From: an uncultured Bacteroidales bacterium
GTDB taxonomy: Bacteria; Bacteroidota; Bacteroidia; Bacteroidales; F082
DNA length: 64,000 nucleotides
Direction of reading: 5' to 3'
Assembly (NCBI GenBank): GCA_900315175.1
Contig: OMYA01000008.1
Coordinates: 1-64,000 of the forward strand
A program made the translations under genes and the position numbers. Within the stretch, counting starts at the first letter, position 1. The number at the start of each line of letters is the position of its first letter. This document shows positions 40,834-47,255 of the stretch, one piece after another. The notes under the pieces were generated by a model. That model saw only the letters and a list, made by a program, of their open reading frames with translations, searched no databases and was not told the origin of the DNA.

Positions 40834-41412
40834 ATGGAAAAACCTAAAATAATATACATTCATGGTTTCGGAGGCTCGCCGTTCACGCAGACGGTGGGCT
40901 TCCTGAACCTTTATTATCCTGATTATGAATGGTGTGCGCTTGAGGTGGACCATCATGCAGGAGCTTCGATAAAGAAAATCAACGATTTCGCGAAGGAGAA
41001 CGAGGTCTTTGCGATGATGGGCACGTCGTTGGGCGGTTTTTATGTGCTTTGCAGCGATTTCACTGGTCCTAAGCTGGTGATAAACCCTGTCATCGAGCCT
41101 ATGAAGTCGTTGAAGAATAGCGTGGGCACGGTGCAGTATCATGCCCGACGCAGCGGCGGCGCCACTTCGTTTAAGTTCACGATGCAGGATTTGTTTGAGT
41201 TTAAGAAATTCAAATTCGTTGTAAATGATAATGTTACGTGTCATCATACAGAGCACGACGAGCTTCTTGGCGACGACATCAAGAGGGATTACGAGAAAAT
41301 CTTCAAGAACCGCAAGATGTGTCCGAAGAAGACGTTGCCGTCGCATATCATCAGCGAGAGCTATGTGAAGCACGAGGTCGGGGAGTGGCTGTCAAACATA
41401 AGACAGGATTGA
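40834..41412 (+). CDS. YqiA/UPF0227-type alpha/beta-hydrolase esterase
   Basis: 192 residues. The opening IIYIHGFGGSPFTQT is the oxyanion-hole segment, MGTSLGGFYVL contains the nucleophile Ser (residue about 69), and HDELL and SHIISESY supply plausible Asp and His. The family (UPF0227/YqiA) hydrolyses short acyl esters, possibly acyl-CoA; the natural substrate is unknown. The start codon follows repeat S4 by eight bases, so the repeat forms its leader. It lies between direct repeats D1 and D2, which suggests the segment was moved or duplicated as a unit. Confidence 0.82.
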   Translation: MEKPKIIYIHGFGGSPFTQTVGFLNLYYPDYEWCALEVDHHAGASIKKINDFAKENEVFAMMGTSLGGFYVLCSDFTGPKLVINPVIEPMKSLKNSVGTVQYHARRSGGATSFKFTMQDLFEFKKFKFVVNDNVTCHHTEHDELLGDDIKRDYEKIFKNRKMCPKKTLPSHIISESYVKHEVGEWLSNIRQD

Positions 41413-41414
41413 GT

Positions 41415-41451
41415 TTTATTAGACAGGATTAACAAGATTAACAAGATTTTT
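41415..41451 (+). repeat. Direct repeat D2
   Basis: The second copy of D1, with AGATTAACAAGATTTTT at its end, directly after the yqiA-like stop codon. Confidence 0.8.
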
Positions 41452-41463
41452 GCCGATACTGGT

Positions 41464-41520
41464 GCCGCTGCCATTAAAGCCGTTAAAGCCATTAATGGCA
41501 TTAAGGCCCTTAAAAGCGGC
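41464..41520. repeat. Palindromic GCC/TTAA repeat R1
   Basis: A 57-bp imperfect palindrome with outer arms GCCGC/GCGGC and central GCCATTAATGGC. Related copies are R2 (47469-47526) and R3 (48857-48904). It lies at the left border of the AT-rich helicase island. Confidence 0.75.
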
Positions 41521-41552
41521 GGCATTAATCTCAAACAAAATTTCACAATTTC

Positions 41553-41584
41553 TTGACTTTTTTAGGAAAAAACTTTTATTTTTG
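41553..41584 (+). promoter_or_regulatory. Promoter of candidate ncRNA
   Basis: TTGAC at 41553-41557 and TATTTTTG at 41577-41584, followed by C. It predicts a start site near 41592 and no start codon for almost 300 bases. Confidence 0.7.
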
Positions 41585-41591
41585 CAGTGTT

Positions 41592-41812
41592 AATTCATAA
41601 AAAAATTAAAAGAAACAGAAATAGTTAAAAGAATTTAAAGAAATATAAAAGGCGTTTTCGCTTTTCTTGGAAAACTCGAAACCTAGGAAATTTCGGAAAG
41701 TAACATCAGAAGAAAGTTGAAACGCTCACGAGTATTTACCGTGGGCTTTCTTGTTGATGTTACAGGTACTCCTAGGACCTCGAGTTTAACAAAAAGTTCG
41801 CGGTTTTTTTTA
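41592..41812 (+). ncRNA. Candidate rod-shaped non-coding RNA (6S-like)
   Basis: After an A-rich unpaired leader (to about 41650) the transcript can fold into a long hairpin. AAACTCGA (41672-41679) pairs with TCGAGTTT (41780-41787). CCTAGGA (41682-41688) pairs with TCCTAGG (41770-41776). There is then an asymmetric internal bubble (12 and 7 bases), TAACATCA (41701-41708) with TGATGTTA (41755-41762), and GCTCACG (41724-41730) with CGTGGGC (41740-41746, one G-U). A T-run at about 41804-41811 would end the RNA. All four stems are perfect or nearly so. A rod with a central bubble is the shape of 6S RNA; the Bacteroidales-1 motif is another candidate. The family is not proven. Confidence 0.68.
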
Positions 41813-41890: not shown

Positions 41891-44560
41891 ATGGCAAACT
41901 TTATAGTTAACCAGAAATACATAATGCATGTCAAATATATTGACACTTTTAATGGAAGGCAGAGTTATGTCGTTGAGTACGAAGGTGTAGAGTATCGTGT
42001 GCGAAAATATGAGCATCAATCTGTTAATCGTACTGAAATTGATGTGGAATACTTGGGTGACAACGCTTGTGGAAAACCAAAATTCGATCAGAATTACACA
42101 GGCGTCCTACATGAGGTTTATGCAGAGGGCTGTACATATCCTTTCAAAATAACAGATGAATGTATTGATCCAAACTCACAAGCTTTTTATTATGCAGTCT
42201 CAGACCAATACGGATTCAAACACAGAGTTTATGCCCTGCAAAATCCGTTGTTTAAGGTTGGTGACGAAGTAGAGTGCGAAGTTGTTGCTATTGAAAACAA
42301 ACATTTAAGCATGCATCTTATTCCTAAAAAAGCAACAACAGCTTCATATACTATTGGCGATGTTGTCGATTTAAATAGTGTTGTAAGCAATGGGGATGGT
42401 ATAGATTTTTCTATGCTGAATCCCGAATACGACACAACTCTTAGAGATTATCAAATTGACAACAAACGCAAAATATACAAAGCATGGCAGAAATGCAGAG
42501 CTGTTATGCTGCAGATGCCGACAGGCACAGGTAAAACTCGTTTATTTGTATCAATAGCCCGCGATTTACACAACTATGGCGTTGAGCGCAAGAAAGCTAT
42601 AAAGATTTTATTTCTCGCTCATCGCAAAGAACTTATAGATCAGATTTCTGACCATGTTGGAGTAAAGTACCATTTGGCTCATGGTCTGATTGTCGCTCAA
42701 AATATGGAACAAAAGAATCTGCCAGTACAGATAGGCTCTGTTCCAACATTGAATCGAAGATTGGAAGGTTGGGGTGACAAGGATTTTGATGTCATAATCA
42801 TTGATGAAGCTCATCATGTCAAAGCTATGAGCTACAAGAAAATTATCGACTTTTTTCCTAGGGCAAAGATTCTTGGTGTAACTGCAACTCCATATCGTCT
42901 CAATGGAGCGGGATTCCGTTCTGAATTTGATGAACTTATTATATCCGCCTCGGTAGCCGAATTTATTAAAAAACGCTATCTATGTGAATATGTATATTAT
43001 TCGATTAAACCTACATCTGAGCTCCAAAAAGAGATTGATAAGATGAAGCTTGATTTCCAAGGTGATTATATGGAAACAGAAATGATGGGCGTGATGGATA
43101 GAGATTTTATTAGAGCGGGCATATTATCTTCTTATCAGAAATATGCAAAAAATAAAAAAGGAATTGTCTATACAATTAGCCGGGTTCATAGTACACATCT
43201 GACAAAAGAATTCGACGCGGCAGGTATAAAGTCGGCAGCCATAGATAGTGAAACACCAAAAGAAAGAAGAGCAGAACTTGTAAGTAAATTCCGCAACGGT
43301 GAAATTCAAGTGCTGTTTAACGTAAATATATTCAGCGAGGGTTTCGATTGCCCAGACGTTGAAGTCATTCAGCTTGCTAGGCCAACCAAATCGCTCGCCA
43401 TGTACTTGCAGCAAGTTGGACGTGGCCTTCGCCCCTCAGAAGGCAAGGATAATCTCATCATTCTTGACAACGTTGGCCTTTTCAACAAGTTTGGATTTCC
43501 GTCTGCACGTAGAAAATGGAAGGATCATTTTGAAGGGCGCACAATAGATGAATCTCCAGAAGCTCAGCGTTTAGACAATGAGAGTGATGAAGAAAGAGAA
43601 GTTTACGATATTTCCGAAGGAGACGAGGATGTTGAGGTCTTACACGACTCAAGAACAGAAGATGTTGGACAATCGGCATTGGATAGTATTGAGCATGACT
43701 ATGAGCAAAGTTTCCTTGATTACGCAGTGAAGTTGTTGAATGTTAATACCGCTCAGAGCTATGCTCGCACTATTCGACAACATCTGGATTTTTACATTCG
43801 AGAACACATTGATACAACTTTCAAAAGTTTATTCAATATAATTGACAGAGAAACATTGAACTCAATCGCTGATGATTTAAAGTCGAATGAAGATTTTCGT
43901 GAGTATAACAGAGAAAAGCATAATATTTATACAGCATCGCTAAATCGTTACTTGGACTTTGCTGAATGGTATACAAATAATCAAACTGGAGATATTCCAG
44001 ATGTTCCGATGGAAACTAAAGAAGAATCACATTCTGAACAACCATATTCGAATATTGATGACGACGATATAGATAGTGAAATTACCTCAATGGAAAAGGT
44101 CATAACTTTTCATAAGAATAAGAAATTCCCGATACCAGAAGAATTATTGTTGGAACTCGAAAGGCTGCGCAAGTTAAAAGCTGTGCGTTCTCGGGAAGCA
44201 CTTGCCAAAGAAATAGAAGACGACATAATTGGCAATTATGACCTGTCTAAAATAGACACCATTACCTATAATATGGGTTCAGAAAATCTGGATGTAAGAG
44301 CTGGTTTTGACTATAAGGCTGAATTATGTGATGAAGATGACATGATGGAACTTACACATATTATGAAAAAACTTAATCTTGAGTTGTCTTATGTGATAAG
44401 AGATAAGCTCAAACTGTTAGACAAGGCAAGAAACATCCACCAGATAGAACAACAGCTTTCTGCAGACATCAAACAATATGTTGAATTGAAGAAAGAAATG
44501 GGGGTAAATATTCAATCTATCTATTATTCTAAAGAAGACGGAGTTATCGTTGATTTATAA
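41891..44560 (+). CDS. DEAH-box SF2 helicase with N-terminal OB-like and C-terminal core-binding-like domains
   Basis: 889 residues. Residues 1-160 look like OB-fold/S1-type beta domains. The SF2 core starts with Walker A MPTGTGKTRL (Lys215), has the DEAH box IIIDEAHHV (Asp305), motif III GVTATPYRLNG, and the second RecA domain with FSEGFDCPDVEVIQLARPTK and the arginine-finger motif QQVGRGLRP. Residues about 610-690 (SYARTIRQHLDFYIREHID, then SLNRYLDFAEWY) resemble the SAM-like core-binding domain of tyrosine recombinases. The C-terminus is helical and acidic. It probably remodels nucleic acid; DNA or RNA is not settled. It is 13 bases from the second helicase gene and downstream of the ncRNA, with no other clear promoter in between. 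Confidence 0.83.
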   Translation: MANFIVNQKYIMHVKYIDTFNGRQSYVVEYEGVEYRVRKYEHQSVNRTEIDVEYLGDNACGKPKFDQNYTGVLHEVYAEGCTYPFKITDECIDPNSQAFYYAVSDQYGFKHRVYALQNPLFKVGDEVECEVVAIENKHLSMHLIPKKATTASYTIGDVVDLNSVVSNGDGIDFSMLNPEYDTTLRDYQIDNKRKIYKAWQKCRAVMLQMPTGTGKTRLFVSIARDLHNYGVERKKAIKILFLAHRKELIDQISDHVGVKYHLAHGLIVAQNMEQKNLPVQIGSVPTLNRRLEGWGDKDFDVIIIDEAHHVKAMSYKKIIDFFPRAKILGVTATPYRLNGAGFRSEFDELIISASVAEFIKKRYLCEYVYYSIKPTSELQKEIDKMKLDFQGDYMETEMMGVMDRDFIRAGILSSYQKYAKNKKGIVYTISRVHSTHLTKEFDAAGIKSAAIDSETPKERRAELVSKFRNGEIQVLFNVNIFSEGFDCPDVEVIQLARPTKSLAMYLQQVGRGLRPSEGKDNLIILDNVGLFNKFGFPSARRKWKDHFEGRTIDESPEAQRLDNESDEEREVYDISEGDEDVEVLHDSRTEDVGQSALDSIEHDYEQSFLDYAVKLLNVNTAQSYARTIRQHLDFYIREHIDTTFKSLFNIIDRETLNSIADDLKSNEDFREYNREKHNIYTASLNRYLDFAEWYTNNQTGDIPDVPMETKEESHSEQPYSNIDDDDIDSEITSMEKVITFHKNKKFPIPEELLLELERLRKLKAVRSREALAKEIEDDIIGNYDLSKIDTITYNMGSENLDVRAGFDYKAELCDEDDMMELTHIMKKLNLELSYVIRDKLKLLDKARNIHQIEQQLSADIKQYVELKKEMGVNIQSIYYSKEDGVIVDL

Positions 44561-44572
44561 ATTTGACACACC

Positions 44573-46357
44573 ATGAAAGAATCATTAATTCAAGTAGCAG
44601 AAGCAATCAAGGGAGCTCAACCTATATACAGTGAAGAGCATATTCCTGTTGTAGCCAGAATACATGGCGATTTTGATGGTAAGGAAAAAACTCTTTGGTT
44701 CCAAATCGGTGCATTAAATAAGTCTATGTTATCTATGTCGCCACAAGTACAAAGTCTGGGAAGAATAGTTTCGAAAAACTCATACATTGCAACCAGGATA
44801 TTAAATAGCAATGTGGGGGACAACATCGATTATCAACAGAGAAGCGAACTTAGAAGGCTGGAAAATCATCATATAAGAACCACGTCTAAAGCTGACTTGG
44901 AAAACAGAGAAATATCAATATGCGATGATTCTCAGAAATACACGTATATTGATATAAATACGTTCTTAGAAGCTTTGAGAGTAAACAAGGCAGAAATTGA
45001 AAGGGTAGATAAAGAGATTGCAGAGCAAAGACGAAGATATGATGCTCTTAAAGAACAAGATAAAGATAATACGGCTCATGAACGTGGTATAATAACCAAG
45101 GGAATTAAGAAGATTGAAGAGGAACGTCGTATTCTTACTTTACAGCAAGAGGAAATGGAACAGTTGACAAGGTACATTCGTCAGCAAGGAAAACTGCGTT
45201 TTAACCCAATACTTGATCCTGTTCAAAATAGAATTAAAACACAAAACCTTTTCAATGGTGTAACTGTTGTCATTGATGGTGGTCCAGGTACAGGAAAAAC
45301 CACAACAATGATACAGCGTTTGAAATATCTAACTGATTGGAATGCCATTGAAGAAGACTTTGTTAATGAAACAAGTCAGTATCAGCTTACTGCTTCTCAG
45401 CGTGATCACTTAAATGAAGCAATTAAAGAACATAGAGATTGGATGTTTTTCTCTCCTTCAAAACTTTTGAAGGAATACCTGAAAGATGCCATGAATCGTG
45501 AAGGTTTGGCAAATACCAGTGCAAAGGTTTGGAGCTGGGCTGAATACAGAAATGTTGTATTACTTGAAGATTATCAACTCTTTGATCTGTCAAATGATGC
45601 CGCACCGTTTAAAGCAGGGCGTAGTACAGAAGTCTTGTTTAATAATTGTTACGGGATAATAAAAAGCTTCTCTGAATATTTTATCGACAGTTTAAAAGTC
45701 AAGAATAAACTTCCAAAGTTAGAGGAAAACGACCAAAAGTATCGTTGGGAGAATATAGCTGTTAATATTAAGAAAAGATTAGATGAAGCTGAAGATTACA
45801 ACAAAATATCACAATTTATACAACTTTTCAATTCTCTTGAACAACTGTACAGTAGAGATTGTTTAGATTTAATATCTGAAAGCAGAACTATATTAAAACA
45901 AATATCAGAAGAAATATATCTACTTGGCAAAGAGAATAAATCAATATATGACAAACTGATTTCATTGGCCAACATACAGTTGGGAGAACAAAATGATGAT
46001 GTGGAAGAAGATCAGGAATCTGTTGATATTTTAGAGGTTAAGAATGAAGAATATGATACAAAGATTATCGACATGATTCGCACATGGTTCAAACGCTTGT
46101 GTCATAGTAAGAAAAACAAGGATATAAACTTAACTCAAAGACAAGAACAATTAAGTGAACTTTTAATGCCTATTGTTACAGAAGAACACAAAAATAAGAT
46201 GGATAGAGTTGGAGAATTAGCTCTTTTTGAACAATATGCAAAATATACCAGAGGGTTGAGAAGTAACTTGTTTGTCGGATTAGCAGGAAAATACAAACGC
46301 TTTCGTCGTCAAGCCTTGACACAAATGGAACCTGGAAGAATTGGAGGCGATGCTTAA
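44573..46357 (+). pseudogene. UvrD/HelD-like SF1 helicase, N-terminal part (frameshifted)
   Basis: 594 residues up to a premature stop. Residues 130-205 are a charged coiled coil (VDKEIAEQRRRYDALKEQDK). Walker A is VIDGGPGTGKTTTMIQRLKY (Lys242). The stretch to residue 594 is the 1A/1B region of an SF1 helicase, with LFVGLAGKYKRFRRQALTQ directly before the break. Walker B and motifs IV-VI are in the next reading frame, so the two ORFs together make one enzyme of about 900 residues. A coiled coil before Walker A recalls HelD, which releases stalled RNA polymerase, but similarity to UvrD-type DNA helicases is equally possible. It follows the DEAH helicase in the same operon. Confidence 0.75.
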
Positions 46358-47255
46358 ACGTAGAAGTGGAAACGAATTACATCCACAAGAGCAATCGTTG
46401 CTTATAGGTTTTATAAATAATCTTGTAAAAGAAGTACTTCGTATAAACAGAGAAAAAATAAATCATCCATTTATTGAAGCATATCAAGAATTAGCTCGTC
46501 CTATTATTGGAGTTGATGAAGTAACAGACTTTAGCGAATGTGATATTTATGCAATGCAGTCGTTGCTATATAATGATTATAACTCATTTACCTTATGCGG
46601 TGATATGATGCAAAGACTTACTCATCATGGCATTACATCATGGAATAGCATACAACCGTATGTTGGCAATATGAAATTAATGAAAATGACTACTTCGTAT
46701 CGTCAAAGTTCAAGTTTGCTTAAAGTAGCTCGGGCACTGTATTCTGATACTATAGGAGAAGAGCCGGATTATAAAGCGTACATGAAATCAACAAAAGTGC
46801 CAGAACCTTTAACTTTTATATCAACAAATGAATCCACAAAGATTGATTGGATTGAAAAAAGGATAAAAGAGGTTTATATTGCTTACGGCAAAAAGCTCCC
46901 TTCAATTGCAATTTTTATGAATAACAAATATGCCATAGCAGAATTTGTTGACAAATTAAAAAATACGGATTTTATTCTTGATTCTGGCATAGAGATTGTT
47001 GATGGCAGTGGAGGAAATGTTTTGGAAAGTAATCATCAAATAAGAGTTTATCCAATAGATGTTGTTAAAGGTATGGAGTTTGATGTTGTCTTTTTCCACA
47101 ATATTGATAATGCTATTGGTGATACCGAATTAATAAAGCGTTATATTTATGTGGGCGTATCTCGTGCGGCATTTTTCTTGGGAATAACACTCAATTCTGA
47201 CCGACAAGATATTACTAAATATTTTAAGGAGGGACTTAACTGGTCGAAAGTATAG
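46341..47255 (+). pseudogene. UvrD/HelD-like SF1 helicase, C-terminal part (frameshifted)
   Basis: The remaining 304 residues in the +1 frame. Reading back to 46320 in this frame gives KWNLEELEAMLKRRSGNELH, a natural continuation of the upstream protein. Walker B is IIGVDEVTDFSECDIYAMQS. FTLCGDMMQRL and TTSYRQSSSLLKVARALY are motifs III and IV. VVKGMEFDVVFF and YIYVGVSRAAFFLGI are motifs V and VI (UvrD_C). An in-frame stop at 46317-46319 in this frame places the shift between about 46320 and 46354. The TTG at 46341 is not a convincing start. The shift may be a real mutation, a sequencing error or a programmed event. Confidence 0.75.

Follow-up and report, generated by a model that had tools for sequence, protein, structure and literature searches.

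The intergenic region before the helicase genes

The analysis concerned a 64,000-nt stretch of DNA, referred to here as the window, in which an intergenic gap of 480 nt separated an esterase-like gene (40834-41412) from a helicase gene (41891-44560). The gap contained a promoter, a structured RNA and a U-run, all on the + strand. The promoter, of the Bacteroidota type, was recognized by its sequence at 41553-41584, where TTG (41553-41555) was followed after 21 nt by TATTTTTG (41577-41584); transcription would be expected to start near 41591-41592. Short near-repeats, GATTAACAAGATTAACAAGATT and then GCCATTAAAGCCGTTAAAGCCATTAATGGCATTAAGG, were noticed ahead of the promoter and 3' of the esterase-like gene (41413-41535), and a similar GGACTAACAAGGACTAACAAGGAC was present 3' of the RNA at another locus (L072).

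The RNA began with an A-rich leader (41592-41646), judged from its sequence to be unstructured, in which a AAGAAACAG stretch was kept in the genus alignment. The leader was followed by the P0 hairpin (41648-41665), whose 5' arm was designated switching segment 1 with segment 2 as its alternative partner, and by a long rod P1-P5 (41672-41787), which was assigned by minimum free energy (MFE) and covariation and proposed to be an antiterminator. Within the rod, P1 paired 41672-41679 with 41780-41787, P2 paired 41682-41688 with 41770-41776, P3 and P4 extended from 41700, and P5 lay at 41724-41730 with its 3' arm at the rod tip. Two alternative hairpins were also identified. The 5' hairpin of segments 1 and 2 (41651-41726), mutually exclusive with the rod, was weak in the window fold and was assigned by family covariation. 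The 3' hairpin (41738-41804), formed by segment 3 ACCGUGGGC and segment 4 GUUCGCGGU, was assigned by fold and covariation and proposed as the stem of an intrinsic terminator. The U-run was located at the foot of this hairpin (41804-41811).

The first downstream gene encoded an 889-aa SSL2/ResIII-type helicase, the nearest PADLOC models being a type IV restriction enzyme and PbeA. Next to it, a UvrD-like helicase (44573-47255) was spread over two overlapping frames, with the AAA_19 part in the N-terminal one (44573-46357) and the UvrD_C part in the C-terminal one (46341-47255). This is possibly a frameshifted gene, and an assembly error or a programmed shift could account for the split as well. 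The similarity of the helicase operon to defence proteins was weak to moderate.

Structure and distribution of the RNA

The region 41592-41812 folded with -58.2 kcal/mol (z = -4.45), and none of the 200 shuffles was as good. When the 3' tail was left off, the rod (41647-41795) gave an MFE of -52.8 (z = -5.5). A sequence-only reading of this DNA had proposed a structured RNA behind a promoter and before the helicases, and that proposal was borne out, the promoter, the rod and the U-run all falling within 41553-41811. The stems which it had placed at 41672-41787 started and ended as claimed, and the asymmetric bubble it described was recovered as asymmetric internal loops at the P1/P2 and P2/P3 junctions. 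Its T-run after the rod was upheld in part: the U-run was present, but instead of being closed by the rod it followed a tail whose pairing partner is the 3' arm of the rod tip.

The compensatory changes anticipated in homologues were also found. Two-sided changes were recorded in 21 of the 40 rod pairs among 29 sequences, and in 35 of the 40 when 89 non-redundant copies were aligned. In the larger alignment 96.3% of the cells were paired and 862 cells were two-sided, against 228 in shuffles; sliding the partners by 1-3 columns lowered the pairing to 47% or less. Although the 89-copy alignment had been fitted to a covariance model, which favours rod pairing, the effect size leaves no doubt that the rod covaries. 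Stems P1, P2 and P3 varied freely with covariation, whereas P0, the P5 tip (CGCUCACG..CGUGGGC) and the internal loops were nearly fixed. G-U wobbles occurred throughout P5 in the 89-copy alignment, which fits an RNA of the + strand better than a hairpin in DNA. On each strand, P2 was flanked by two further small hairpins (GAAA..UUUC and GGY..RCC) that looked conserved and may form kissing loops; in the GGY..RCC hairpin, compensatory changes were seen by eye (GGU/ACC, GGC/GCC, AGC/GCU).

Homologues were first found by a DNA search in the same genus, several per genome. Of 99 genomes of the genus, 94 contained the RNA according to the covariance model R1, all 46 near-complete ones among them; absence of the structure from close relatives would have refuted the earlier reading. 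Across the order, the same model found it in 91 of 295 sampled genomes, and the broader model R2 in 57 of 396 sampled from the phylum. A degenerate pattern scan of named genomes returned 91 stretches, 89 of them, where the titles were readable, in records titled Bacteroidota or its subgroups; one title says only uncultured bacterium. Carriers included Rikenella microfusus, Millionella massiliensis, Alistipes sp. and Chitinophaga silvatica. The genome studied here had at least five copies at E <= 0.001 (two strong and three weaker), two sister species had at least 23 to at least 25, and at least 36 were counted in G370 by fuller scoring, the counts per genome being limited by the number of candidates scored. 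Copies within one genome were diverged, each standing before a different gene. Two weak copies in the own genome (L206 and L207, on C14 and C15) carried an extra hairpin of ~60 nt in the P5 tip.

No family of Rfam 15 covered the RNA, and the assignment to a known family looked for by a covariance scan was not obtained: at gathering and loose thresholds only chance matches were returned on the window. A published description was found nowhere in the main text of the open-access literature searched. The RNA is a real, phylum-wide, multi-copy cis-regulatory RNA family of Bacteroidota and is probably new to description.

A second fold and the position before genes

It was observed that the tail 5' of the U-run imitated the 5' arm of P4-P5 and can therefore take the place of that arm on the 3' arm. 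The pairing was examined in 90 non-redundant copies. Segment 3 paired with its own segment 4 at -13.1 dG, compared with -11.2 for mismatched partners (z -10.4; 0 of 20,000 permutations), while the control pairings 2:4 and 1:3 gave z values of -1.5 and -0.6. The base after CACG in segments 3:4 occurred in all four Watson-Crick types, and in seven copies segment 3 matched segment 4 better than segment 2. The matched-versus-mismatched z was -5.4 for the outer 3:4 stem, and -11.0 and -5.6 for the outer part and the core of the 1:2 hairpin, respectively. These permutations preserve composition and not ancestry, and the tests are accordingly strong but not phylogeny-free. A further control, the P0 arm with the tail, also departed from chance (z -3.4). 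This departure was attributed to the tail mimicking segment 2, and it indicates that some relatedness is left in the permutation test. The P0 5' arm and the tail (S1:S4) were also considered as a closing stem, a pairing that was rejected for its lack of covariation (z -0.5).

The two halves of the RNA were also folded separately. The 3' half cut out alone formed the 3:4 stem onto the U-run in 86 of the 86 copies parsed (mean z -4.0), and the 5' half beat its shuffles in most copies (mean z -2.75). For the window copy, the 3' hairpin had -25.0 kcal/mol (z -3.83), and the 5' hairpin was no better than shuffles (z -0.3). The rod was estimated at -53.0 kcal/mol versus -41.5 kcal/mol for both hairpins together.

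The surroundings of the copies were compared further. Among 143 distinct copies, 135 could be scored because a downstream ORF was near enough; it was on the same strand in 131 of them and not in four; the ORF start was placed at a median of 53 nt 3' of the RNA. A same-strand ORF was also found downstream of 38 of 40 further copies (18 from G070, 20 from G370 and 2 from G000). Upstream ORFs were on the same strand in 89 of 129 cases and on the opposite strand in 40. The ORFs were called by length only, and individual cases may be wrong. In the 160 nt upstream of the RNA, the motif TANNTTTG was present for 114 of 140 copies; in the 160 nt downstream it was present for 15 of 138, compared with about 11 in shuffles, and a promoter between the RNA and the gene was thus not enriched over those 138 copies. 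Hence, the gene apparently relies on the promoter before the RNA, in which case transcription must cross the U-run, and a U-run of at least 5 nt was retained in 129 of 138 copies. The suggestion that the RNA is a long 5' leader of the helicase genes was supported by this arrangement. In several copies of same-class genomes (L208-L228, families f121-f124), a divergent small HTH-like gene was located upstream, and short inverted matches, TGCGATACTTCA and TAGTATCGCA, lay on either side of the RNA; these could be regulator sites or mark an invertible segment.

We proposed that the helicase operon has a 5' leader in which this RNA probably serves as a transcription attenuator acting in cis. Its four segments follow the order known from classic attenuators: 2 and 3 pair in the tip of the long rod P1-P5, and this pairing excludes both 1:2 and 3:4. 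Alternatively, segment 1 pairs with segment 2 in the 5' hairpin and segment 3 with segment 4 in the 3' hairpin, directly before the U-run. With the rod formed, transcription would read through into the gene; with the two hairpins formed, it would stop and release a leader of ~220 nt. The 3' hairpin is a putative terminator of transcription, and a ligand, a protein or a condition presumably shifts the balance between the folds. Since the rod is lower in energy, it would win once its 3' arm was made, and read-through would be the resting state unless a factor held the 5' hairpin or folding was too slow.

Two mutually exclusive conserved folds, as in a transcription attenuator, were found, and a terminator hairpin with a U-run was predicted from the sequence between promoter and gene. 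Points against an attenuator are the long loop of the 3' hairpin, the weak 5' hairpin of the window copy, the control pairing that departed from chance, and a simple terminator scan that made no call at this site; the loop limit of the scan was 8, and the hairpin here is long.

The same order of segments, exclusive folds (1:2/3:4 versus 2:3) and a hairpin followed by a U-run before the gene are shared with trp-type leaders, T-box leaders and terminator riboswitches. T-boxes occur in many copies per genome, as does this RNA. In contrast to known attenuators, the 2:3 state here takes the form of a 100-nt rod, three of whose stems are variable and covary, the genes targeted are surface and defence genes without relation to each other, no leader peptide was seen in the window copy, and the RNA is without a known ligand. 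The DUF805b (RF02914) and DUF805 (RF03081) motifs are likewise cis-regulatory 5' leaders of Bacteroidota, but they differ in sequence and structure (35 and 68 nt). They were rejected as the identity of the RNA, as no model match was obtained at the element, the matches elsewhere lying downstream of the RNA and not on it. All seven DUF805b matches in G248 lay 28-42 nt 3' of an RNA copy, and some were so placed in other genomes (G139, G370, G000:C15); both motifs followed the RNA at L091 and L109. By a loose pattern, one or the other followed 6 of 139 copies and was absent in the window. Their position ~30-40 nt after the RNA suggests that the known small motifs may belong to longer leaders.

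Alternative explanations and target genes

A 6S RNA had been suggested for this locus; it was considered together with a 6S-like RNA polymerase decoy, and the long rod with asymmetric, open internal loops does resemble 6S and 6S-Flavo; moreover, no other 6S was found in the genus by the RF00013/RF01685 search. However, neither model matched in the window or the genome, and the RNA did not behave as an independent few-copy gene without a tie to its downstream gene. Unlike 6S, it was multi-copy and stood immediately before a same-strand gene in nearly every case; its downstream genes were diverse, and its conserved second fold breaks the rod. The 6S explanation was therefore abandoned as extremely improbable. 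The other family suggested, Bacteroidales-1 (RF01693), which is similar in order and in length (~180 nt), was not supported either: its model had no match in the window or this genome, with weak matches at other loci in two sister genomes, G003 and G007.

An unlikely explanation is that of a stand-alone small RNA of ~220 nt, acting in trans, for which the place before genes would be incidental or a matter of RNA pairing. It would account for the RNA's own promoter and U-run, and a terminated product of ~220 nt is expected in either case; the same-strand gene directly 3' of nearly every copy, the lack of promoter enrichment after the RNA and the many diverged copies with a different gene each argue against it. 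It is also improbable that the leader uses both folds to act on translation or mRNA stability without a stop at the U-run. The short and regular distance to the ATG would suit such a leader, but the U-run was retained precisely at the base of the 3' hairpin. An element acting at the DNA level, such as a recombination site or the end of a mobile element with hairpins working as single-stranded DNA, was considered very unlikely. The multiple copies and the accessory-type genes downstream (restriction systems, surface proteins) would be consistent with it; against it stand the divergence of copies within a genome, the strand-specific G-U pairs, the oriented promoter and U-run, and the absence of a match in phage records, plasmids and a pattern scan of viral contigs. 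Retrons, group II elements and integron attC sites were considered and dropped, as the copies are dispersed, have their own promoter and contain G-U pairs.

The proteins encoded downstream (103 different ones of 131 after a redundancy filter) shared no metabolic pathway. Common Pfam families were BspA-type leucine-rich repeats, the T9SS sorting domain, Ig-like, PKD, ResIII/DEAD helicases, DNA methylases and LytTR, and among the PADLOC models were an HKD+Snf2 helicase as well as restriction enzymes and methyltransferases of types I and IIG. A simple hydropathy rule classed 67% of these proteins as signal-peptide-like, compared with 26% of the other ORFs of at least 150 aa in the same loci (Fisher p = 6e-11). 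In a sub-family of the RNA (the GCGTTTTTGC form; L023-type genus copies, e.g. L037, L041 and L060), a PLD-nuclease/SNF2-helicase gene (MSTKFFNN..) recurred downstream with a second gene after it, and genes named ORF6N-, RhuM-, DUF1016- or AAA-like by sequence resemblance only were often located upstream. These loci are a possible defence island.

If the attenuator proposal is true, accessory genes of Bacteroidota from the gut, the rumen and the environment are, as a large class, under the control of one undescribed RNA device, namely those for T9SS and leucine-rich-repeat surface proteins, for lipoproteins, and for restriction-modification and helicase systems. The promoter, both folds and the stop site are predicted to the base. 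Tentatively, a single signal or RNA-binding factor could be common to all copies, which would then form a phylum-wide RNA regulon, T-box-like in its layout, and switch the surface, secreted and anti-phage genes together; the variable stems would prevent pairing between neighbouring copies. The trigger, once identified, would reveal what the target genes respond to.
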